A stretch of DNA of 64,000 nucleotides from Chloranthus sessilifolius. Taxonomy: Eukaryota > Streptophyta > Magnoliopsida > Chloranthales > Chloranthaceae. The notes beneath the pieces are model-generated. The model had not been told where the DNA came from. It saw only the letters and a list, made by a program, of their open reading frames with translations, and did no database searches. The stretch lies in assembly GCA_021018995.1 (NCBI GenBank), contig CM037584.1, positions 145,717,317 to 145,781,316 on the forward strand, written 5' to 3'. The position numbers were made by a program, and so were the translations under genes. Below are positions 20,514-36,729 of this stretch, piece after piece (positions within the stretch are counted from its first letter, which is position 1; every line of letters begins with the position of its first letter).

Positions 20514-22620
20514 TGTTGGGATTCTACCCTGTGCTCAAAAAGGGGTTTAAAATCGCACAATTAAAGGGTCTATGAATAGCACACACCAAGGCAGGCTCAC
20601 ACACAGTCCTGCAAGTATTCAGGGCCTGTTGTAGCAAGTTTTAAAAAAGTAAGGGAATATCCACAGGGAAATGTGAGTTAAAGTCAGGTAAATCTCCAGA
20701 TCTGTGGTAGATCTGGCACCCTTCCTAATGTTAAAATAGTAAAAGGAAGAGGAGAGGTTTAAGGGGTTGTCACTTCTAAATTAAACTAAAAACAAGTAAG
20801 ATTGCAGAGATGGATGGTAGGATCAGATCTAGAGTACAGATCTTGCAGAGAGGGGGAATTAAACACAGAAAATGGGGAGAAACAGCTTGGAGTTTGATCT
20901 TGCAGCAATTAGGTTGAGCTGCTAGGGTTACAGAGAGTTTAGAGTATACTGAACCCTCATCTGGCCATAGGCACAGCTGCAGGGTAGAAGAATCTACTCT
21001 ACACCTAAGGCTTGAACTGATCTTAAGGGTATGATCTGTCCACTTTAATGGTCACAGATCATCCTATAGACTTCCTCCAAATCAAAGGATTAAGGTAAAA
21101 GAATCCAATTTAGACCAGAGGATTGAATTGATCGTAAGACTATGATCTGTCCACTTCAATGGTCACAGATCATCCTAGGGATTTCCTCCAAACCAAAGGG
21201 TTCGATTAGAGCATTAAAATTACTATGAATGCTGCAATTACTAGGCCACAGACATAGGTAATTACAGGAGCATCAGATCCAAGGAGATCAAATGGCATCC
21301 AAGAGGTCTACCAATTAAGTGGGTGAGTTATTCTCATCTACACAAAGCCGATCGAGCACCAAATGAAACCAAAGAAACTATAGATCTAATAACAATAATT
21401 AAACTAACATTACATTGAATTAAACTGACCATACAATGAAATGTCCTCAAATTTGCAGTCTATGCATCATCTAACCCACAACAACACTCTCAGCTCTCCC
21501 TAATTATAGCTTCGACCTCTCTCTTTGCTGCTCTCAAGAAATTAGCCAACCATAGTTGGACTAAAGGAAAGAATTAAATAATTTCGCTGGAAGCTTTAGT
21601 TTCCATAATCGATCCCCCCTTTTCTTACGGCTTCCTTCCTTCTTATAGCTTTCTCCTTCAGCCTTAGATCTATTTTTCCCGCCAATTGCAACTTCTAGAA
21701 TGATTCTCTTATTCCCTTTCTAGAAGGTTCTTCCAGTTCGTTATAGTTTGAGAGAGAGCACGTGGGTCGGTTAGGGTTTCCCAAGGCACTTCTAGAATCC
21801 TTGCGTCGGTCACCAAGGTGCCTCGGTTTGCATGCTGTAGGTTACCAACTCGCGGCGTGTGCACAGCAGCTTTTCTGGGAAGTGTTTAGATCGATTTCGA
21901 TAGGTTGATGAAGCTTTCGATAGGTTGAAATCTAGTACTTTAGTCCTTTCGCTAGGATTCAGGATCCTATTTAAAGGTTTCGATAGGTTGAAACCTGCAA
22001 CTAGAGCTTCAGCATCTGCAGCTTCAGCATTTGCAGCCTTCATTTGATGTTTTCGATAGGTTGAGGGGTCCTTTCGACAGGTTGAGCTCTTGCACAATCG
22101 CTTTCGATAGGACTGTTCTCTGCCTAATAGGTTTCGATAGGTTCTCTTCTGGCTCCTATCGACAGGTTCTCAAACTTTTTTATAGGTTCTGTTCAAGCTC
22201 AGGCAACCATTCGATAGGATGCTCCCTTGTTGCTTTCGACTGCGTGATAGGTTCTGGATCCTATTGAATTCTCCCCATCTTCACGATTTCTTCCTTTTTT
22301 AGCTTTCAGATCTTATCGATAGGTTGCAGTAACCTATCGACAGGTTGTTCTCAGCCTGTTTTTCCTTTTTCAACGCTACTTTGTTGTTGCTGCATGCCCC
22401 AAGTGGTCATTGGTGTGGGGCCCTTTTGTGTGCCATAGCTGGGTCAGAGCTGTAGTGAGAGATGGACCTTCTTGTAGAGCACTTTAGGGTGGATTTCTGC
22501 ACTATGATTGCTTATTACTACTATCTGCAAAACATGCTCAACAAGCACTTATTAGCCAACTCATAGGTCTATCAAAGCTCATGTTAAGGGGTGAAAAGTA
22601 GTACTTTTCACTGATTAATA
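20514..22620 (-). repeat. Element B, 3' LTR
   Basis: On the minus strand the LTR ends in AATCCCAACA at 20514 and starts next to the polypurine tract TTTGGGGGTG at 22621-22632. The expected TG start has become TA. Its first 1.04 kb is nearly the same as B's 5' LTR at 44467-45504. It lies directly against interrupted LTR sequence of element A; the 5 bp on the left are TAAGT. The partner duplication would lie beyond element D, outside the window. Confidence 0.8.
21890..22345 (-). repeat. CGATAGG / CGACAGG motif array in B's LTR
   Basis: More than a dozen TTTCGATAGG or TCGACAGG words occur, for example at 22054, 22075, 22105, 22135, 22160 and 22212. Intervals are about 21, 30, 30, 25 and 52 bp. 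They are the complement of the CCTATCGA words of element A, so the motif keeps its orientation relative to each element. Confidence 0.75.
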
Positions 22621-23834
22621 CACCCCCAAACCTAAGCTTTGCTAGTCCCTGAGCAAAGAAAAGATAAAGAGAATTAAAATGCCACTTTTGTAGGGAGCAC
22701 AGATGCATTTAGCATATGCATCAAGCCTTTTAAACCCCTAGGTGATCCCTAGTGGGGGAGTGAAGTCTCCTGAGGGTTTTCAGTGAAGGTACCCACAAAC
22801 TTCTTCAATAAAATAAGTTAATACTCATGCAACATGCTAAAACAGAGTTTAAGTAAATAAAATGAATTCCACACCATTTCCATTCAATTTTAGAGGATTT
22901 TCAACATAAAAATTACCAGTTCAAAACATGAAATTCTGCTGTAATTCCTTCATCATCAATCAGTTCATGTCAAGGCATTGTGTCTGAAAATTAATGCATA
23001 GCTCACCTTTAATTTAAGAATTCAGCTCTGATAATACCCCAAATCTTTTATTTCAGACCCAAATCTTACCAGGGCTGTTCACTCACAATAAAATAGAAGG
23101 GCGTATCATTTCACACAGCTCAAGAGTAGTTACAGCCCTCAAATAGGACTGCAAGCATGAGCATAGGCATTGCTCTAGTTTCTGAAATTTCTAATTCTTT
23201 TCACCATAGATCAAACAAATTCTCATCTCCACATGACAGCTCAATCTATGTCAGATCAGTAAGGTCTTTTTATTGGGTTGTAATGTGGCTTATGTGTGAG
23301 GTTTATAAAGAATAAAGGAGTAAAAGGATTCAAATTGAGAAATCAGTAAAGTAAGGGGTTGATTCATGACTTCACCTTCTTCATTTCAGCACCTCTTCAT
23401 TTTCTTTTTGAATTTTCATACTTGAAGTGATCAACTTCTTATCTTTTTGTAGATTTTCAAGTGAAGTGACTTCTCTTTTCTTTTTTTTCATTTTTTCATT
23501 TTTTTTATATTTTTCTCCATTTTTCTTTTTATGGGCTGGAATGCCACAATTCCATCAAATGTGCTTCCTTCTTTTTCAACCAAATTTTAAACCGTGCTCC
23601 TCTAACCTCACTTCTCCTTCTATCTCCTGATTCCTCAGATTAAGGGTGAGCTGAAACAGGTCAAAAGGTTTTGGGTTCAAATTTTCTGGTTTTCATCAAA
23701 GAAAATTAGGACTTTTAAGGCTCAAGTGGTGTGTATCAAGGGCAGTTCAAAGGTGAGACATTTTAAGCTCAAACTGTCCATGGGATGGCCTTACTTCATG
23801 TCCTCACTATCATGCATGCTGTCAAGCTGTTTCA
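22410..23834 (-). repeat. Element B segment, copy 1 of a 1.43-kb direct repeat flanking element C
   Basis: The segment covers the U3 end of B's 3' LTR (22410-22620) and the adjoining 3' non-coding region. It is repeated at 35291-36729 with about ten substitutions and poly-T length differences. Here it ends CTGTTTCA directly against C's left LTR. In copy 2 the same words continue into ACTCGGATTTGCC. Confidence 0.9.
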
Positions 23835-25976
23835 TGTCACAACCGCAGATTTTTGAGTTGAGTGCAGGGCACGCATACACACATAGGTATATGTGTTTTA
23901 CAAGGAGACCAAAACGACCCAAATACATTAAGTGTGTACGTGGGAAACACACTAGTATATCCCTAACTTTTAGATATAAAAGTGAAAGAGAGAGAGAGAG
24001 GAACCTTTACGTAACTCTATTCTAACCTAAATAGAGAGAAGGAGAATATAGAGAGAATGAAGAAAAGAGCCTGGTAGAGAACTAGGGTTCGTTAAGACTT
24101 AGGTCGGCAAAGGAGATCAGAGGAAAGGACGGGAGGAAGAACCAGGGAGGCCGGATAGCCTAGTAGATATTCAAATCATAAATCGGACCTGTGCGTGATT
24201 CATCGTTAGAGGTACGTTAAAAACATGATAGATGCCTAGGAATGTTATGAATAGTAGGATAGAAGATGGATAAAAGTTGCTTGTATGAGATTAAAAAAAA
24301 GTGGATGGAAATCTGTTCTCGATCGGATCGAGGACAAATCATTGTTCCTCGCCGAGCGGTCTAAAAGGCTCGCTCGAGCGAGGATGAACAGAAAAATATG
24401 ACTGGGCTCGCCGAGTTCCCTAAAACTAAAGGGGAGCTCGCCGAGCGAGGGTCCACGGTCATATTGCGAAAGCTCGATTAAACTGCTCGAGCGCCCTCGA
24501 TTTAACCGCTCGAGTGAGGTCAAGAGGCCGCCGAGCGAGGTCAAGTGACCGCCGAGCGAGGATAATTAGCCATGAAGCGGTCCGTGACCACTCAGATCTT
24601 GGTTTGCTAATATAAGAAACTTGGGTGTCATACACCCCAATGACCTTAGATCATTCTAAAACTATTTCTTTAATGTAGGTTGATGCATTATAACCCTCCA
24701 CGAGCAGGCGTGCCTTGAGATTCGTCGAGGTAGGGAATATTCTCGAAACATGTGCATTATTCTGTGAACTCATATGCGTAGTATAGTCTATGTAAATAGT
24801 GTATATTCCATAAACCCTCATGATAAGGGTGTGTGTGTGTGTTACAATGTGGAAACTCCTGAGGTCCCCAGGGGACGAGAAATAAAATAGGAGCAAGTGG
24901 CATCCCAGGGATGCGTAAGAAAACAAATAGAGAAACAAAGGTAACGTGATAAGGCCTAATGTAATATATTTAGCACAATCACGGTGAATGACTATATGTA
25001 AAGCACATTGATATTTTTATTATTTAAGGTTGATTAGAATACCCCACCGACGTGGCGGGATACCCACGACTGACTCGGCAGGATATCCGTGACCGGTACG
25101 GCGGCCAATCCGTACATTTATAACACATCCCAGGGATGTAGATTGAGAATAGACCCCGCCGCCTATGAGGAAGGGGCTCGGGCAGTATTCCCAGGGAATA
25201 CATATAACAACTGTCTAGTTAGACGACGATGGCGGGTATTCCATCGGGGCTCGATGCTATATTGCTCGAGGACTACTTAAGTTAAGATTTAAGTGATTAG
25301 GCCAAATTCACAACCAAACTTATAAGGAGAATAAACAAAAATATGCTAAGTATTGGTCGGAACCATTGGGTTATTCCTGTTACTCAAAATGTTGTACATA
25401 AGTGATTTCTTGAAAATTCTATGCTGGTTAGGTTACTGACATATGTGTGAAGGATGATCTATATGTTCTTTTGTTTTCCCTACGGAGCTAGGATGTAGCT
25501 CACCCCTTAGACTATACGTCGCAGGTCCAGGACTAGCGGCAGCAAAGACTTCGGGAGAAGTTAATCCAAGGGCCTCGGTGTTCGTGGCCACAGAAGAGTC
25601 GGAACCTCCTCCCGAGGAATTCTTCTAGGAAACCCGCTGCATACTCTGAGAGTGAGTTGAGAGAGTATTATGTATGGCTTGGTATATCGAGCCTCTTTAT
25701 TTCGAATGCTTTAATTTCTGTCTCTTGATTAAACATCTAGGATGAATAATTATCATTTAACTTTTGGGTATGTCCTTATGTCCATGAATTGGCATGGGAC
25801 AAGGACAGCCTTGCGAGACCAAATATATTATTTTGAGATTTCGATTTAGGGTAGCTACGTGTGCTTCAATTTCAGTTTTGGCTTGTATATATCATTGTAT
25901 TATAAAGGACCCAGGGCACCGCCTTGAAGGTCGTGCTGATGGCACGGATTTCGGGATGCCGAAATTCAGGCTGTCA
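23835..25976 (+). repeat. Element C, left LTR
   Basis: TGTCACAACCGCAGATTTTT to AGGCTGTCA, 2142 bp, with the partner at 33156-35290. It contains a CT/GA-rich tract (23985-24000), a block of CTCGCTCGAGCGAG palindromes in damaged form (24345-24560), and a GT run (24830). Compared with the right LTR it has many small insertions and deletions, mostly in GC-rich words, and few substitutions. Confidence 0.9.
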
Positions 25977-26085: not shown

Positions 26086-27470
26086 AGAGGGAGAGGCCAC
26101 CTGTGGGTGGTCATGATAGGAATTTATGCAAGAGAGATGGGTTCGTCTCACCTACAAACAGGCCGTTGGGAAGCAGGGAGATTCCAGAGCGGTGGCTGTG
26201 AGGAAACCAAAATCAAGCAGAGGAGCAAGATCTAGATAGACAGGATGGAGATCAGAGGGAACAAGATAGGGTGAGAGAACGAAATGAAGAAAGAGAAGAG
26301 CGTCAGAGAATGATGCACACAATGGAGACCATGGCAACTGCCATGGCACAACAAGCAGCGTCCTTGGTAGCGCATACAGTACCAGAACCACAACGAACAC
26401 CTACCCCTCCAGTAGGACTTACACCTTCAGTGGCTTCAGCATTCACCGAGTTCAGAAGAATGAGACCTCCCAACTTTTCAGGACAGGCAGACACGATGGC
26501 CGCCGAAAACTGGTTGGGAGAAATGGAGAAGGTGTTCAGCGTACTGACATGCACGGAGGATGAGAGCGTCCGTTGGGCAGCATATATGTTAGATGGAGAA
26601 GCTGGACCGTGGTGGAAATCAGTTTCGCGAAACGAGAGCACAAGAAACTCCAGATGTACCGTGGACTTGGGACGAATTTGTAGAAGAATTCAATAAACAA
26701 TATTTCCCTGAAGTTGTGAGAAATCAAATGGAGACCCAATTTTTACAACTAGCACAGGGAAGAATGACCGTGAGAGAGTATGGAGTGGAATTCATGAGAC
26801 TGGCTCGCTTCGCCCCAGACTACGTAATCTCAGACGTGATGAAAGCGAAGAGGTTCCAACAGGGCTTAAGGTCGGACATCCGAGGAGGGGTTGCGCCCTT
26901 CCAGCTGAAAACTTATGGAGAAGTAATGAGTAAGGCATTGGTAGTTGAGGAAGAAAACAATAACCGATACCGTCAGAGGGAACATCAAGGTAGAGAAAGC
27001 ATTGATTCGAGCAGGACGGGGAGTTATGAATCGGTATATAAGAAACCGAGGTTTGTAGCACCAAATCAGAAACAGTCATTCCAGACAGGGTATGGGAGAG
27101 CTGCACAACAACCTACTCATCAAAATTATCCGTTGCTGGCATCAGGGAGACCGATGAGGTATCAAGGTTTTTTCCAATGGGCTACAACTCCACAAGGTTT
27201 TTCGAGAGCTGCTACTTCATCACCAAGGGAAACTTGTGCAAAATGTGGCAAGTCCCACAAAACAACCGACTGTAGGCAGGGAATGCGAGGCTGTTTCAAT
27301 TGTGGCAAGATAGGCCACATGATTAGAGAGATTACAGAGACAGTCAAAGAAAAGACGGCTCCAACTTCCATGCCACAACCTATTCAATCTCGAAAGCTTT
27401 GTTATTCGAGGGAGAGCCTCTGTGATTACACCAGAAGCGTGGAGTGTACACGACGTTATCCAAGGTGAGA
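26086..27470 (+). pseudogene. Element C gag (frameshifted)
   Basis: Tekay-type gag. The first frame (about 26271-26640) holds an acidic/basic N-part and the capsid start MRPPNFSGQADTMAAENW up to EAGPWWKSV. The second frame (from about 26640) continues WTWDEFVEEFNKQYFP, the conserved plant gag segment, then FMRLARFAPDYV and FQQGLRSDIR. Two zinc-knuckle-like motifs follow near 27235-27325: CAKCGKSHKTTDC, and CFNCGKIGHMIRE, in which the last Cys is lost to a small deletion and the frame drifts. Gag packages the RNA and forms the particle. The start is uncertain; an ATG at 26086 begins an RGRG-rich head in a third frame. At least two frame breaks make it inactive. Confidence 0.85.
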
Positions 27471-27619: not shown

Positions 27620-28123
27620 TTACAGATTTATGAGAAAGGGTGCTACGTAGCACATGACGCGCGAGTGCTGATAGACCCAGGGTCTACCCACTCTTTCATT
27701 ACCCCTAGATTTGCAAAAAGGATGAAGATTATTCCGGAAACGCTGGACTTTGTGTTATCAGTGTCCATCCCAACAGGAGAATTAGTGGACACGGGGTTAG
27801 TCTACAAATCGGTAGTAGTAAGCATTCGAGATCACGCTGTCCACGAATTAGACGCAAATTTAATATGGTTGGACATGCAAGGATTCGATGTAATCCTTGG
27901 CATGGATTGGCTGTCCCACCATTGCGCAACGGTGGACTGCAAGGATAAAGTGGTTGTTTTCCGTCCTAACACGAGGAGATCGTTTCGATTTCAAGGGGAG
28001 AGGTCGACTCAAGTACCGCTCATATCTGCAGTCAGAGCAGAACGTTTAATCCGAAAGGGGTGTAGTGGTTATTTGGCATTTTTGAAAGAAGATAAAGAAG
28101 AAAAGAAATTATCACTGAGATAG
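27620..28123 (+). CDS. Element C protease domain
   Basis: The frame from 27563 to 28123 carries an aspartic protease with the active-site box [14 protein letters not shown], and [13 protein letters not shown] downstream as the flap/core motif. These are typical of Ty3 elements of the Tekay/Del group. The protease would release gag and pol products in the particle. The frame stops at 28123, two bases before the RT frame start, so pol is split here; originally the two would be one polyprotein. Confidence 0.85.
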
Positions 28124-28125
28124 AA

Positions 28126-29034
28126 GTGGTGCGAGAATTCCCAGATGTATTCCCAGAAGAATTGCCAGGATTACCTCCAGAAAGAGGAGTAGAATTTGCG
28201 ATCGACTTAGCACCAGGAACGGAACCTGTTTCAAAGGCACCTTATAGAATAGCCCCTGCAGAGTTGAAAGAGTTGAAAGAACAACTGCAAGAGCTCATGG
28301 ACAAGGGATTCATACGACCAAGTGTGTCTCCGTGGGGAGCACCAGTGTTGTTTGTGAAAAAGAAAGATGGGTCAATGCGGTTGTGCATCGACTACCGCCA
28401 ATTGAACAAAGTCACGGTGAAGAATCGATATCCGTTGCCAAGAATAGATGACTTATTCGACCAATTGCAGGGTGCAAAACATTTTTCCAAGATTGATCTA
28501 AGATCTGGGTACCATCAGTTAAGAGTCAGGGCCGAGGACATTCAGAAAACGGCTTTCAGAACACGGTATGGACACTATGAATTTTTAGTGATGCCGTTCG
28601 GACTGACAAATGCACCAGCGTCATTTATGGACTTGATGAATCGAGTGTTTAAACCACACCTAGACTCCTGCGTGGTAGTGTTTGTTGATGACATCCTAAT
28701 CTACTCAAAATCTAAATCGGAGCATGAAGAACACTTACGTGTCGCTCTACGAACCTTGCGTGAACACCAACTATACGCTAAGCTCAGCAAATGTGAGTTT
28801 TGGCTAGAAGAGGTTAGCTTTTTGGGACATGTCGTATCCAAGCATGGCGTCACTGTAGATCCCGCCAAGATCGAGGCAGTAGTGAACTGGGAACAACCAA
28901 AAACCGTGATAGACATCCGAAGTTTCCTCGGACTGGCAGGTTATTATCGACGTTTCGTAGAGGGGTTTTCAAAAATATCAGGACCTCTTACGAGGCTTAC
29001 AAGAAAGGACTCAAGATTTGGAGTGAGGCGGTGA
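28126..29034 (+). CDS. Element C reverse transcriptase
   Basis: A 302-residue open frame containing all core RT blocks. These include [14 protein letters not shown] (linker), [59 protein letters not shown] and the catalytic box FVDD at residues 186-189. [15 protein letters not shown] and [16 protein letters not shown] follow. Both catalytic Asp are present. It uses the Met-tRNA primer at 25981 to copy the element RNA. The frame breaks after TRLTRKD, at the border with RNase H. This is the best preserved gene piece of element C. Confidence 0.92.
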
Positions 29035-29440: not shown

Positions 29441-30986
29441 CACCTGGAGAGTCAAATTTCGATGGAAGTTGTTGGAGGATCTAGCGTTATGTGGCGCATA
29501 CATAACCGCAAAGCCACAGGAGCCTTCTTAGCCAACATATCAGTGAAGCCAGTGATATTCAAACACATACGAGAACTACAGATGAAAGACCCGATTTTAA
29601 CAAGGATACATCAAAATGTAACTGAAGGTACTACCTCGGAATTTTCAGTCAAGGAAGACGGTTCCTTAATGTTCAAGGGGCGACTTTGCATTCCGGACAA
29701 TGCCGAATTACGGCGAACGATTCTTGATGAATCTCACAGGACAAGCTATGCGATCCACCGGGAAGCACGAAGATGTATCGGATCCGAAAAGAACTACCGT
29801 GGAGAGGTTTGAAATAAGATGTGGCGAGTACGTGTCACGATGTTTGACGTGCATACAAGTGAAAATCGATCATAGACACCCCTCAGGTCTATTACAGCCC
29901 TTGCCCATACCGGAATGGAAATGGGAGTCTATCTCAATGGATTTCATAGTCGGTTTACCGCGAACTGCAAGGAGGCATAACGCCATTTGGGTAGTAGTTG
30001 ATCGATTGACAAAGTCGGCACATTTCTTGCCGTACAATACGATGTACACAGCGGGAAGACTAGCAGAACTTTATATGAAGGAGATCGTCCGGCTACATGG
30101 GATTCCAAGTAGCATTGTTTCAGATCGAGACCCATTATATACATCAAAGTTTTGGAGGAAATTCCAAGAAGGAATGGGAACTAGGTTGGATTTTAGTACG
30201 GCATTTCACCCACAAACAGACGGAGGCGGTGAGAGGGTCAACCAAGTCATTGAAGACATGCTTAGGGCATGTATGTTAGAGTTGCAAGGATCATGGGATC
30301 AACATCTACCATTGATTGAGTTCGCTTATAATAATAGTTTTTAGACGAGCATCGGGATGGCACCGTATGAAGCCTTGTACGGAAGACGATGTAAGTCGCC
30401 AATCAACTGGGAGGAAATTGGCGAGAAATTCGTTTTGGGACCCGAGCTACTTGAAGATAACGCTGCTATTGTCCGCATGATCAGAGAATGACTAAAGGCG
30501 GCTCAGAGCAGACAGAAAAGTTATGCTGATATCAAGCAGACTAGCGTAGACTTTAAAGTGGGTGAACATGTGTTCGTGAAAGTATCACCGATGAAGGGAG
30601 TGATGAGATTTGGGAAGAGAGGGAAACTAAGTCCCCGCTATCTTGGACCGTTTGAAGTTTTGGGTCGAGTGGGAGAAGTAGCCTACCGCATTGGTTTGCC
30701 ACCATTGTTTGATCAGGTACACAATGTATTCCACGTGTCGATGCTTAGAAAATATCTCAATGACCCTGATCACGTGCTGAGCGGCCAATCATTCGAAATG
30801 CATGAAGATATGACCATGATTGAAGAGCCGGTAGAAATTTTAGATCGAAAGGAACAGGTGTTGCGAACAAAAGTAATTCCCTTAGTGCTTGTCCGATGGA
30901 AGAACCATCCGGCCGAAGAGGCAACATGGGAACGTGAGGCGGATGTTAGAGAGCAATATCCCAAATTGTTCGAAATTACCAACTGA
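29441..30986 (+). pseudogene. Element C integrase with chromodomain
   Basis: Four pieces. 29441-29812 is the N-part (FKHIRELQMKDPILTRI, GRLCIPDNAELRRTIL). 29700-30344, in another frame, holds the catalytic core with D81 (SMDFIVG), D142 (SDRDPLY) and E178 of that frame, with 35 residues between the last two. A TAG at 30342 cuts the frame; the sequence then goes on TSIGMAPYEALYGRRCKSP, and a TGA occurs near 30489. 30558-30986 is the C-terminal domain (KLSPRYLGPFEVLGRVG, VFHVSMLRKY), ending in a chromodomain (LVRWKNHPAEEATWERE). The chromodomain places C among chromoviruses of the Tekay/Del type; such domains steer insertion towards heterochromatin. The catalytic triad is kept but the chain is broken. 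Confidence 0.9.
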
Positions 30987-31146
30987 ATGGGTTCATTCCT
31001 TGAGAGTACGCGATTACGAGAACCACAAAAGCTATGTATATTTTATTTTAATGATATGTTGACTCCAAACTAAGATTGCACCCATTGTCATTGAATTTTA
31101 TTTTAATGGGACTAATGATTATATAAAAAAAAAATGTGTTTCTAGT

Positions 31147-31350
31147 CTCGCTCGAGCGACTACTTATGACCGCTCGAGCGAACTACATAAAATCACACTT
31201 CCTCTCGCTCGAGCGATAACAAATCCTCGCTCGAGCGAGGTATTTGGACCGCTCGAGCGATGCATTATAACCGCTCGAGCGAGGCTACAGTATATAATAA
31301 TACGATTTCTGTCCTCGCTCGAGCGAGAACTAATGACCGCTCGAGCGAGG
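31147..31350 (+). repeat. Phased array of CGCTCGAGCG palindromes
   Basis: Perfect 10-bp palindromes start at 31149, 31171, 31206, 31228, 31250, 31272, 31316 and 31338. Six of the seven intervals are 22 or 44 bp; the one exception is 35. The 12-bp spacers differ from each other. Many copies extend to the 14-bp palindrome CTCGCTCGAGCGAG. The array lies 160 bp after the pol stop and just before the accessory ORF. The same words recur in both LTRs. Confidence 0.95.
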
Positions 31351-31562
31351 CGGAACTATAAAAATGGCAGAGGCCAGAGCGCCTGTTCATCTTCAAGCGA
31401 AAGGGAGAAGAGACGAGCAAGGGGTTAGGGCAAGCGATTTCCAATATTTTCCGTCCGATTTCAGCCGGATTTGGACAATCCGATCCGTTAAGACTACTCT
31501 CTTAGGTAAAATCTACCGATTCCTAAACTCTTTCCTTTATTTTTCAACCTTATTTATACTAA

Positions 31563-32800
31563 ATGGCCTCAAGCCCGAACCCCCAACCAAAGAAGCAGAT
31601 GGCGACTTTCGATCAACGCAACAAAGCGCCTCAAACCTCTCAACCATCATCAAACCCCTCCCTCCAATCACACTAGATGATTGGTGGGGAGCAAAAATTT
31701 TGAGGCGAATGGAAATACACCCTCGTGTTTGAGATCCGGCGTCCACCAGTGGACATCGAACTTTCTCACCAACAACCAGCTCAAGACCACCTTCGCCTTT
31801 GAGGATCGGTATTACGAGGCTAGTGAAATTGTTTTACGGACCCTACAATTGGCGTCGATGAGGATGCCATACTCGTTACCATCGATGGTAATGAGTTAAT
31901 TTTCGAATGTCGACATTTCCTCAATCATGAAATGTCCTCACATCTACACCCCTAGTCCACTCATCCTACCACCTTTTTTAAGGGCGTAGATTTCCCACGA
32001 TCATTTTCGACATCCGGCGGTATGTCGCCTCGGGACAATCTATTACCCGATCACAACTACCGCCGCGCATGTGGCTTTTAGATATTATCTTTAAAAAGAA
32101 TCTACACCCAACCGGCCATGATCAAGAGCGCCGAGATGCGTTTCTGCGAGCCCTACACACAGCTTTTCACAATAGGTGGATCAACGCACCTATGGTCATC
32201 ATAAAAGGCATGGCGCATGCCTACAAAAGAAATGTAAGGGGTGCTGTCCCTCCACCAATCAACCGATTACCATATGCTCGGTTGATTTCCCGACTCTTAG
32301 ACTCACGGAATGGGAAGGGAGGATTTAGGATCCGGGAGGACGAGTTGTTCCTCACTGATAACGTCGTCCCATATCTCGCCCAAGACTGGAGCCGAAACCT
32401 TAAAAGCCTACAAACTAGTGTCAACAAGAAGAGAGACCGACAAGTCTCCCGATCAGCCACCCATCAAGCACCGGTAGGACCGACTACTCCCTCTACCTCA
32501 GTTCCACAGCCCATACCCACTACCGACGCGGGCATGATGAGGGAGATCCTTCAGCAAGGGAGGGAGATCAGGTTGCATCAGAGGTTCCAGGAGGCGCTAC
32601 TTATCGACCTCATGGGCCAGGCATACCATGATCTTACATGCGGTTGAGGTGCCATGAGGGACGCTATTTTTGGAGCATCTAGCTCCGGCCCGGCTACGAG
32701 GAGCGCCACAGTTGGTACCACAGCCGTCACGGTGGACGATGACGATGAGGATGGCGAGGACTACGACGACGACGACGACTATGAAGAGGATGAGGATTAG
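31563..32800 (+). pseudogene. Element C accessory ORF with acidic tail
   Basis: An additional coding region lies between pol and the 3' LTR. The start ATG at 31563 begins MASSPNPQPKKQMATFDQ. A stop, then an open stretch 31681-31899, more breaks, then a 192-residue frame 32069-32644 follow. The latter contains NLHPTGHDQERRDAFLRALH, PPPINRLPYARLISRLLDS and AQDWSRNLKSLQTSV. After one TGA (32645) the same frame continues to 32800 as GAMRDAIFGASSSG and a run of Asp/Glu with few other residues. Composition and the TGHD block resemble the 'putative plant transposon protein' domain seen in many plant transposon ORFs; this is a tentative match. Role unknown; an acidic tail suggests contact with chromatin or histones. 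Confidence 0.6.
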
Positions 32801-33155: not shown

Positions 33156-35290
33156 TGTCACAACCGCAGATTTTTGAGATGAGTGCAGGGCACGCATACA
33201 CACATAGGTATATGTGTTTTACAAGGAGACCAAAACGACCCAAATACATTAAGTGTGTACGTGGGAAACACACTAGTATATCCCTAACTTTTAGATATAA
33301 AAGTGAAAGAGAGAGAGAGAGGAACCTTTACGTAACTCTATTCTAACCTAAATAGAGAGAAGGAGAATATAGAGAGAATGAAGAAAAGAGCCTGGTAGAG
33401 AACTAGGGTTCGTTGAGACTTAGGTCGGCAAAGGAGATCAGAGGAAAGGACGGGAGGAAGAACCAGGGAGGCCGGATAGCCTAGTAGATATTCAAATCAT
33501 AAATCGGACCTGTGCGTGATTCATCGTTAGAGGTACGTTAAAAACATGATAGATGCCTAGGAATGTTTTGAATAGTAGGAAAGATGTTGGATAAATGTTG
33601 CTTGTATGAGATTAGAAAAAAAAAAGTGGATGGAAATCTGTTCTCGATCGGATCGAGGGACAAATCATTGTTCCTCGCTCGAGCGGTCTAAAAAGGCTCG
33701 CTCGAGCGAGGATGAACAGAGAAAAATATGACTCTGGGCTCGCTCGAGCGGTCCCTAAAAACTAAAGGGGAGCTCGCTCGAGCGCCACGGTCATATTTTG
33801 AAAGTTCGATTTAACCGCTCGAGCGACCTCGATTTAACCGCTCGAGCGAGGTCAAGAGGCTCGGCGAGGTCAAGTGACCGCCGGCGAGATAATAATTAGT
33901 GCATGAAGCGAGGTCCGTGACCACTCAGATCTTGGTTTGCTAATATAAGAAATTTGGGTGTCATACACCCCAATGACCTTAGATCATTCTAAAACTATTT
34001 CTTTTTCAAATGTAGGTTGATGCATTATAACCCTCTAAGGGCGGGCGTGCCTTGAGATTCGTCGAGGTAGGGAATATTCTCGAAACATGTGCATTATTCT
34101 GTGAACTCATATACGCAGTATAGTCTATGTAAATAGTGTATATTCCATAAACCCTCATGATAAGGGTGTGTGTGTGTGTTACAATGTGGAAACTCCCGAG
34201 GTCCCTGTGGACGAGAAATAAAATAGAGCAAGTGGCATCCTGTGGATGCGTAAGAAAACAAACAGAGAAACAAAGGTAACGTGATAAGGCCTAATGTAAT
34301 ATATTTAGCACAATCACGGTGAATAACTATATGTAAAGCACATTGATATTTTTATTATTTAAGGTTGATTAGAATACCCCACCGACATGGCGGGATACCC
34401 ACGACTGACTCGGCAGGATATCCGTGACCGGTACGACGGCCAATCCGTACATTTATAACACATCCCAGGGATGTAGATTGAGAATAGACCCCGCCTATGA
34501 GGAAGGGGCTCAGCGATATTCCGGGGAATACATATAACAACTGTCTAGTTAGACGACGATGGCGGGTATTCCATCGGGGCTCGATGCTATATTGCTCGAG
34601 GACTACTTAAGTTAAGATTTAAGTGATTAGGCCAAATTCACAACCAAACTTATAAGGAGAATAAACAAATATGCTAAGTATTGGTGGAACCATTGGGTTA
34701 TTCTACTCAAAATGTTGTACATAAGTGATTTCTTGAAAATTCTATGTCTTTAGGTTACTTGACATATGTGTGAAGGATGATCTATATGTTCTTTTGTTTT
34801 CCCTACGAGCTAGGATGTAGCTCACCCTTAGACTATCGTCGCAGTCCGGGACTAGCTAAGAAAGACTTCGGAGAAGTTAATCCAAGGGCCTCGGTGTTCG
34901 TGGCCACGGAAGAGTGAACCTCCTCCCGAGGAATTCTTCTAGGAAACCCGCTGCATACTCTGAGAGTGAGTTGAGAGAGTATTATGTATGGCTTGGTATA
35001 TCGAGCCTCTTTATTTCGAATGCCTTAATTTCTGTCTCTTGATTAAACATCTAGGATGAATAATTATCATTTAACTTTTGGGTATGTCCTTATGTCCATG
35101 AATTGGCATGGGACAAGGACAGCCTTGCGAGACCAAATATATTATTTTGAGATTTCGATTTAGGGTAGCTACGTGTGCTTCAATTTCAGTTTTGGCTTGT
35201 ATATATCATTGTGTTGTAAAGGACCCAGGGCACGGCCTTGAAGGTCGTGCTGTTGGCACGGATTTCGGGATGCCGAAATTCGGGCTGTCA
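33156..35290 (+). repeat. Element C, right LTR
   Basis: 2135 bp, TGTCACAACCGCAG to CGGGCTGTCA. Palindromes CGCTCGAGCG are intact at 33676, 33699, 33741, 33775, 33816 and 33839. Intervals are 23, 42, 34, 41 and 23, close to multiples of the 22-bp phase of the internal array. The right flank is TTGGT, which does not match TTTCA on the left side of the element. Confidence 0.9.
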
Positions 35291-36729
35291 TTGGTGTGGG
35301 GCCCTTTTGTGTGCCATAGCTGGGTCAGAGCTGTAGTGAGAGATGGACCTTCTTGTAGAGAACTTTAGGGTGGATTTCTGCACTATGGCTGCTTATTACT
35401 ACTATCTACAAAACATGCTCAACAAGCACTTATTAGCCAACTCATAGGTCTATCAAAGCTCATGTTAAGGGGTGAAAAGTAGTACTTTTCACTGATTAAT
35501 ACACCCCCAAACCTAAGCTTTGCTAGTCCCTGAGCAAAGAAAAGATAAAGAGAATTAAAATGCCACTTTTGTAGGGAGCACAGATGCATTTAGCATATGC
35601 ATCAAGCCTTTTAAACCCCTAGGTGATCCCTAGTGGGGGAGTGAAGTCTCCTGAGGGTTTTCAGTGAAGGTACCCACAAACTTCTTCAATAAAATAAGTT
35701 AATACTCATGCAACATGCTAAAACAGAGTTTAAGTAAATAAAATGAATTCCACACCATTTCCATTCAATTTTAGAGGATTTTCAACATAAAAATTACCAG
35801 TTCAAAACATGAAATTCTGCTGTAATTCATTCATCATCAATCAGTTCATGTCAAGGCATTGTGTCTGAAAATTAATGCATAGCTCACCTTTAATTTAAGA
35901 ATTCAGCTCTGATAATACCCCAAATCTTTTATTTCAGACCCAAATCTTACCAGGGTTGTTCACTCACAATAAAATAGAAGGGCGTATCATTTCACACAGC
36001 TCAAGAGTAGTTACAGCCCTCAAATAGGACTGCAAGCATGAGCATAGGCATTGCTCTAGTTTCTGAAATTTCTAATTCTTTTCACCATAGATCAAACAAA
36101 TTCTCATCTCCACATGACAGCTCAATCTATTTCAGATCAGTAAGGTCTTTTTATTGGGTTGTAATGTGGCTTATGTGTGAGGTTTCTAGAAGAATAAAGG
36201 AGTAAAAGGATTCAAATTGAGAAATCAGTAAAGTAAGGGGTTGATTCATGACTTCACCTTCTTCATTTCAGCACCTCTTCATTTTCTTTTTGAATTTTCA
36301 TACTTGAAGTGATCAACTTCTTATCTTTTTGTAGATTTTCAAGTGAAGTGACTTCTCTTTTCTTTTTTTTTCATTTTTTCATTTTTTTTTTCATTTTTTT
36401 TATATTTTTCTCCATTTTTCTTTTTATGGGCTGGAATGCCACAATTCCATCAAATGTGCTTCCTTCTTTTTCAACCAAATTTTAAACCGTGCTCCTCTAA
36501 CCTCACTTCTCCTTCTATCTCCCGATTCCTCAGATTAAGGGTGAGCTGAAACAGGTCAAAAGGTTTTGGGTTCAAATTTTCTGGTTTTCATCAAAGAAAA
36601 TTAGGACTTTTAAGGCTCAAGTGGTGTGTATCAAGGGCAGTTCAAAGGTGAGACATTTTAAGCTCAAACTGTCCATGGGATGGCCTTACTTCATGTCCTC
36701 ACTATCATGCATGCTGTCAAGCTGTTTCA
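35291..36729 (-). repeat. Element B segment, copy 2 of the 1.43-kb direct repeat
   Basis: Starts TTGGTGTGGGGCCC directly after C's right LTR and ends CTGTTTCA, continuing into ACTCGG at 36730. It repeats 22410-23834 with about ten base changes. It carries a second copy of the first 211 bp of B's LTR (35291-35501) and of B's PPT. Confidence 0.9.

Follow-up and report, generated by a model that had tools for sequence, protein, structure and literature searches.

The window, that is, the whole 64-kb stretch of DNA analysed here, contains an LTR retrotransposon, element C, in which perfect 10-bp palindromes at steps of two helix turns stand ahead of a TATA box and an accessory gene. The palindromes are selectively conserved among copies of the element, are shared with unrelated retrotransposons, have been exchanged as cassettes between LTRs and agree with the clades of the accessory proteins. 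As the best explanation of these observations taken together, we consider it probable, though well short of certain, that the palindromes are operators and that the accessory protein is their regulator.

Overall organization of element C

Based on the TG...CA ends of its LTRs, its Ty3-type gag, reverse transcriptase and integrase, and its chromodomain, element C is assigned to the Ty3 chromovirus LTR retrotransposons. The 5' LTR (23835..25976, plus strand) and the 3' LTR (33156..35290, plus strand) share 94.9% identity; both start with TGTCA and end with TGTCA. A PBS-like TGGTATCAGAGC begins 4 bp past the 5' LTR. The plus strand then carries a gag fragment (26593..27465; PF03732, E 1.7e-16), a reverse transcriptase fragment (28096..29031; PF00078, E 1.6e-39), an integrase fragment (29670..30341; PF00665, E 1.5e-05, under the curated cut-off) and the pol end with an SH3_Tf2-1 domain and a chromodomain (30492..30983; PF24626, E 1.3e-25, and PF00385, E 7.3e-07). 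The pol end is followed in order by the array, the TATA box, a leader and the accessory ORF. A 5-bp target-site duplication was looked for at the LTR ends and is absent. Element C is flanked by a 1.43-kb direct duplication (22406-23834 and 35287-36729, 98.4% identical), the copies of which start and end at the element borders, in place of the expected 5-bp target duplication.

The PF20167-like accessory ORF (31563..32761, plus strand) is broken in the window and 92.4% identical to the uninterrupted ORF of the family copy L017. An ORF of 418-425 amino acids is present in 7 of 30 sampled family copies, and it is under purifying selection (dN/dS 0.265 over 21 pairs of the 7 copies). The three element C proteins scanned against PF20167 (Transposase_32) scored 33.5, 29.8 and 31.1 bits against a curated cut-off of 45, with the match covering profile positions 4-172 of 177. 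Searches of a 5.8-billion protein set including plants returned no homologue at E 0.01, either for the 221-aa accessory fragment of the window (100 candidates) or for the accessory ORF of L019 (4408 candidates). Profile comparison with solved structures gave a best E of 0.33. A single marginal match to the solved structure of CFAM166C (E 0.0028) was taken as chance, and the single-sequence fold of the window fragment was unusable, with a mean pLDDT of 39.7.

The palindrome array

Exact matching confirmed the eight perfect CGCTCGAGCG palindromes reported in the earlier note, which start at 31149, 31171, 31206, 31228, 31250, 31272, 31316 and 31338. The array (31149..31347, no strand assigned) is conserved in 30 copies of the family. 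Its spacings of 22, 35, 22, 22, 22, 44 and 22 bp bear out that all intervals but one are 22 or 44 bp, and the 12-bp spacers do differ from one another. The 64 kb hold 15 exact CGCTCGAGCG sites, against about 0.02 expected from the window base composition. A TATA box, ACTATAAA (31355..31362, plus strand), lies 7 bp past the last palindrome and is proposed to belong to an internal promoter; by position, 31363..31562 on the same strand would be the leader between the TATA box and the accessory ORF.

The claim that the array is repeated in the LTRs stands in part. Six exact palindromes are present in the 3' LTR (33676..33848, no strand assigned), but at spacings of 23, 42, 34, 41 and 23 bp rather than 22. 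The 5' LTR also has a cluster (24350..24559, no strand assigned), but it is decayed, with a single exact CGCTCGAGCG at 24371, one-mismatch sites at 24484 and 24507, and four sites (24350, 24439, 24529 and 24550) in each of which the same T is missing (CGCCGAGCG). The CGCCGAGCG form occurs once in the 29 other family loci and in 0 of 23 sampled clusters from elsewhere in the genome; a local assembly error or gene conversion is a possible origin of this shared loss. Downstream of the LTR clusters lies a TATA-like GCTAATATAAGAAA (33939..33952, plus strand; 5' LTR copy at 24606-24619).

Conservation among element C copies

The family was collected with 31063-31620 as the query; from 1520 first-look candidates, 40 were scored, giving 30 loci including the window. 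With up to two mismatches allowed per site, the full register is kept in 23 of the 30 copies. In the other 7 copies sites are missing or shifted; adjacent palindromes are 22 bp apart in 141 of 200 distances over the 30 copies. Alignment of the copies, as the earlier note had proposed, showed far less variation in the palindromes than in the spacers, so that the note's proposal withstands its own refuting condition of equally conserved spacers. Over 29 copies, the difference from the window is 2.6% in the palindromes, 1.1% in the adjoining bases, 8.3% in the spacers and 14.1% just upstream. Columns with shared variants, defined as those present in at least three family copies, number 2 of 80 in the palindromes and 22 of 119 in the spacers, so the two are not equally conserved. 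The corresponding counts are 41 of 162 in the interval between pol and the array, 130 of 1419 in pol, 35 of 212 in the leader and 206 of 1499 downstream. In addition, the TATA box ACTATAAA is identical across the 30 copies, except for one base in one copy.

This column conservation led us to reject neutral tandem duplication, in which the array would be a minisatellite between pol and the 3' LTR. Tandem repeats in that position are frequent in plant Retand elements, according to the accessible text of PMC11963269. Here, however, the palindromes are constant and the spacers variable, within as well as between copies, and the same pairs occur in unrelated sequences, leaving this explanation a practically negligible probability.

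Singleton C>T or G>A changes at CpG sites occupy 18 of 1427 cells in the palindromes, 55 of 4039 in pol and 31 of 4340 in the accessory region. Singleton variants of family copies mostly postdate insertion. Shelter of the array from methylation is not supported, because the palindrome CpGs decay like those of pol. Since they decay in this way after insertion and yet are constant in the spreading lineage, the alignment argues that the palindromes are under selection in the lineage that kept spreading.

The motif in unrelated retrotransposons

Genome-wide counts over 2.17 Gb (32 contigs), with the reversed string as control, revealed 30274 copies of TCGCTCGAGCGA against 141, an excess of about 215-fold. 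Exact palindrome pairs at 20, 21, 22 and 23 bp number 95, 1378, 11758 and 1609, respectively, with 0 for the reversed controls; among the 23-bp pairs listed, the spacers resemble those of the element C LTR. Two further 12-bp palindromes are also abundant: ACGGACGTCCGT, with 9483 copies against 14 for its control, and TCGATTAATCGA, with 241617 against 55. The latter is often found in long arrays, for example at C1:19527-19921 on contig 1. Its period is 20.87 bp, equal to two turns of 10.4 bp (vector strength 0.60, 156 distances), as measured at 100 listed places, all near one end of contig 1.

We read 23 clusters of the CGCTCGAGCG motif (L001, L002, L004 and L035-L054; L003 was dropped as it overlaps L002). 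They were taken from the head of the contig 1 listing (0.28-6.8 Mb) and do not sample the genome at random. In 21 of the 23 there is a pair 21-22 bp apart with at most one mismatch, the exceptions being L038 and L042. No BLAST match to element C was found in 16 clusters, and in the other 7 the matches cover at most 94 bp, on the motif; the 23 split into several sequence groups. The idea that the motif is private to the element C family was rejected, as unrelated sequences carry the same pairs. Its users include an element with a chromodomain pol (L004/L057), an element with a Ty3-type gag (L002, E 1.2e-13) and a Ty1/copia element (L055), in which a repeated LTR-like segment bearing the pairs precedes gag (E 4.3e-27). 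In L004/L057 an accessory gene would not fit, since pol ends about 330 bp ahead of the first site. Outward of the cluster, at a distance of 65-143 bp, a TATAWA is present in 20 of the 23, compared with a mean of 7.6 and a maximum of 14 clusters for block-shuffled flanks; cluster L051 has a second TATAWA 204 bp away on the opposite side. Several unrelated retrotransposons share the CGCTCGAGCG-type motif as a promoter-proximal element.

The spacers are not entirely free. The likeness between families exceeds that of shuffled spacers, with z of 11.2 for 29 distinct 12-bp spacers and 6.2 for 12 distinct 11-bp spacers in a sample that still included some distant relatives. The statement that sequence is conserved in the palindromes and only length in the spacers is therefore too strong in its second half. 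The sequence AACCAAA/TTTGGTT is present in many spacers of the pairs listed and resembles what we take to be a MYB-type site; a second factor might be bound there, between two dimers.

The pairs also bear on RNA or single-strand hairpins, in which two copies 22 bp apart would pair as a stem around a loop of about 10-12 bases. Every pair could form such a stem by sequence, but compensating changes are rare in mutated pairs (L037 is the one example in the pairs listed). A loop needs neither the sharp spacing of 21-23 bp nor the periodicity of the arrays, and the symmetry of each single copy would be left unexplained; we regard hairpins as highly improbable.

Concordance of accessory-protein clades and palindromes

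The genome yielded 13855 first-look candidates for PF20167 genes, and all 150 that were scored passed the cut-off. Upstream regions were examined for 36 of these 150, comprising 20 spread over the list and 16 picked because their profile ends were atypical or their rank was low. CGCTCGAGCG was found within 1.3 kb upstream of none of the 36. A strict array rule was applied, requiring at least four sites of one 10-bp four-letter palindrome with at most one mismatch, and two or more steps of 20-23 bp. By this rule, phased arrays of other palindromes are present in 11 of the 20 and 9 of the 16 upstream regions, as against 0 of 200 block shuffles. On 70 overlapping tiles of the window the rule returned the element C arrays alone, and on L055-L057 only the CGCTCGAGCG sites of L056. 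The palindromes ahead of the other PF20167 genes are CGGACGTCCG, CGATTAATCG, CGGTCGACCG and the hardly phased CCTCGCGAGG. L070 carries TGGTTAACCA, which equals CGGTCGACCG after CpG deamination. In L074, 14 copies of TGATCGATCA, separated in alternation by about 20 and about 23 bp (140-496 in upstream orientation), lie 1.3-1.7 kb upstream of the PF20167 gene; they may come from another insertion and possibly represent a further palindrome system of another element.

A tree of the PF20167 domain was built from 43 rows, the 36 genes and 7 element C copies. A row was labelled if it had at least three sites and one best motif, which applied to 36 rows: 18 with CGGACGTCCG, 7 with CGCTCGAGCG, 5 with CGATTAATCG, 3 with CGGTCGACCG and 3 with CCTCGCGAGG. 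The seven unlabelled rows are L058, L070, L074, L075, L099, L100 and L106; the domains of L058 and L074 are identical or nearly so to those of genes with CGGACGTCCG. The five palindromes, which were discovered in the same data that they label, require 4 changes on the protein tree, the minimum, compared with at least 13 in 300 label shuffles that ignore the relatedness of the rows. As relatives inherit gene and array together, the 36 labelled rows amount to about five independent cases. Accessory-protein clade and palindrome are thus concordant, with five clades and five palindromes.

Among adjacent distances of up to 60 bp, those of 20-23 bp make up 34 of 48 for CGCTCGAGCG, 45 of 75 for CGGACGTCCG, 27 of 29 for CGATTAATCG, 3 of 3 for CGGTCGACCG and 1 of 6 for CCTCGCGAGG, the hardly phased palindrome of clade II. 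Four of the five half-sites, CGCTC, CGGAC, CGGTC and CGATT, have the outer CG in common and differ in the inner bases. Concerning the host elements, what we take by signature to be a copia RNase H end lies upstream of several CGGACGTCCG genes; a Pfam scan of the L059 piece returned nothing like RNase H. A retroviral SH3-like domain and an integrase core were found upstream in L058. An apparent Ty3-type integrase end (Pfam 0.057 at best) precedes the genes of the CGATTAATCG and CCTCGCGAGG clades, whose host elements are presumably Athila-like.

The concordance supports the tie between the array and the accessory ORF that the earlier note had suspected, and also weighs on two other candidate binders. 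Host transcription factors could bind the palindromes, the families having acquired or exchanged host sites and the accessory protein having another role. LTRs that respond to stress are known to have taken up sites for host factors, unrelated elements of the Ty3 and Ty1/copia types use one and the same palindrome even where an accessory gene would not fit, and AACCAAA/TTTGGTT in some spacers resembles a MYB-type site. Comparison of Sirevirus boxes with plant cis-element databases gave mainly stress-related sites, according to the accessible part of PMC2829016. This explanation would, however, require several host factors, all of them with 10-bp palindromes at two-turn steps as their sites and each paired with a single accessory-protein clade. 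We consider such host factors rather unlikely, but a good deal less so than the second candidate, another element-encoded protein such as integrase or gag, with the palindromes serving targeting or packaging and not transcription. Any such protein would track the same lineages and clades. However, TATA boxes and the accessory gene stand downstream of the clusters, and the palindromes serve Ty3 as well as Ty1/copia elements, though the pol and gag proteins of the two differ in kind; this makes the second candidate improbable.

Exchange of palindrome cassettes between LTRs

Six of the ACGGACGTCCGT places listed were examined (L114-L119). In L114 and L115, CGGACGTCCG adjoins a pol end with a chromodomain (E 9.2e-06 and 3e-06), and in both the sequence on either side of the array is homologous to that of L004, a carrier of CGCTCGAGCG. 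L115 matches L004 at 78% over 757-1301 and at 77% over 122-543, with no match in between. In a joint alignment, identity between L004 and L115/L114 is 59-86% in the 100-column blocks surrounding the array, with a fall in the last L115 blocks, and 36-44% in the array block itself. In that same block the identity is 62-70% between L004 and L044, and 73-76% between L114 and L115. In addition, L116 and L118 match L043, L051 and L002 at 72-81% on one side of the array. In homologous LTRs, therefore, the operator cassette has been replaced while the promoter region stayed.

Proposed regulatory circuit

We propose that the 3' accessory gene is driven by an internal promoter, to which the array belongs as operator and upstream activating region. 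As each site is symmetric, one symmetric dimer would sit on each palindrome, and as the steps are of two turns, neighbouring dimers would lie two helix turns apart on one DNA face. The two-turn phase and selective conservation support the repeated sites for a dimeric protein envisaged in the earlier note, as do the promoter position and the presence in unrelated elements. The clade-palindrome concordance makes the accessory protein, a putative sequence-specific regulator, the first candidate and most likely binder, and the position of the palindromes points to a promoter-proximal activator or anti-silencer. The LTR promoter carries the same operators, and a feedback circuit may be inferred from the same site standing at the accessory promoter and in the LTR: the accessory protein would activate, or keep unsilenced, its own internal promoter and the LTR. 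Families without the accessory gene but with the operator in the LTR would respond in trans, and LTRs could swap one operator cassette for another.

A wider reading, which we hold as a whole to be evenly balanced between true and false, is that PF20167-type env-like or accessory genes encode dimeric sequence-specific DNA-binding regulators, not envelopes; that these co-diverge with phased palindromic operators; and that the module of gene and operator resides in Ty1/copia, chromovirus and probably other Ty3 elements. It further holds that the operators have spread further than the genes, that regulator-bearing and freeloading elements form competing networks in one genome, and that LTRs change network by exchange of operator cassettes. 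Several competing networks per genome would follow from operators outspreading genes, given the 30274, 9483 and 241617 copies of the three 12-bp palindromes.

The match of clade and palindrome joins two questions, the role of env-like or accessory genes and the binder of the Sirevirus palindromes. If the proposal is true, LTR retrotransposons would count among the elements with a sequence-specific regulator of their own, the hundreds of thousands of identical palindromes present in a single plant genome would have an explanation, and elements would be seen to exploit one another's regulators. We found no paper linking PF20167 proteins with palindromes, in a search whose reach ended before most subscription papers and preprints, and none pairing GCTCGAGCGA with a retrotransposon; among the matches listed for the decamer, none was by title on retrotransposons or such motifs. 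Palindromic boxes (Sirevirus), a matched system of protein and motif (VANC) and a PF20167-like Athila accessory ORF are known already. As far as the literature was searched, the occurrence of this plan in a chromovirus, its strict two-turn phase and the selection test appear to be new, as do the concordance with protein clades, the sharing across superfamilies and the cassette exchange.

Comparison with known systems

Extra ORFs between pol and the 3' LTR (aORFs) are described for plant LTR retrotransposons in the accessible parts of PMC7264820, PMC11963269 and PMC11728184. The 3' aORF of sunflower Athila has similarity to PF20167 (PMC11728184, accessible part), and the maize Grande antisense gene has its own promoter (the same three papers). 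Unlike in element C, no matched operator arrays are described for aORFs in those parts of the three papers. The foamy virus Tas protein, by the available text of PMC4929722, is encoded before the 3' LTR, has an internal promoter and binds both that promoter and the LTR. Element C is similar in layout only, with sites in the LTR and in a putative internal promoter ahead of the accessory gene; foamy viruses, in contrast, are animal retroviruses, and no phased palindromes are described in that text.

The RM boxes of Sireviruses (Bousios and others 2010, PMC2829016, accessible part) are palindromic and clustered upstream of the LTR TATA box, and also upstream of the env-like gene where present. 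They vary between elements and, according to that study, are confined to Sireviruses (Ty1/copia); all except one have a CGG-CCG core, and no common binder was identified in that study, as far as its accessible text goes. The boxes CGGTCGACCG (Vitis) and GTCGGACGTCCGAC (Usier) from the same source share their core with palindromes of this genome. Similar to RM boxes, those of element C lie upstream of the LTR TATA and of the env-like or accessory gene. However, element C is a Ty3 chromovirus by its chromodomain pol, and its CGCTCGAGCG lacks the CGG-CCG core, being of the CGC-GCG type, while PF20167 clades III and IV have CGG-CCG. Also unlike RM boxes, the palindromes of this genome follow a strict two-turn step, are matched to clades, are common to unrelated elements and are exchanged as cassettes.

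The VANC anti-silencing proteins of VANDAL transposons act on a short motif repeated in the non-coding regions of the element; protein and motif diverge together between VANDAL families, and binding and loss of methylation were demonstrated (PMC5735166, PMC10398659, accessible parts). VANDALs (Mutator-like) are DNA transposons, whereas element C is an LTR retrotransposon, and those parts of the two papers do not call the VANC21 motif palindromic. As with VANC, a protein encoded by the element and a repeated motif appear to diverge together, seen here as the concordance of clade and palindrome.
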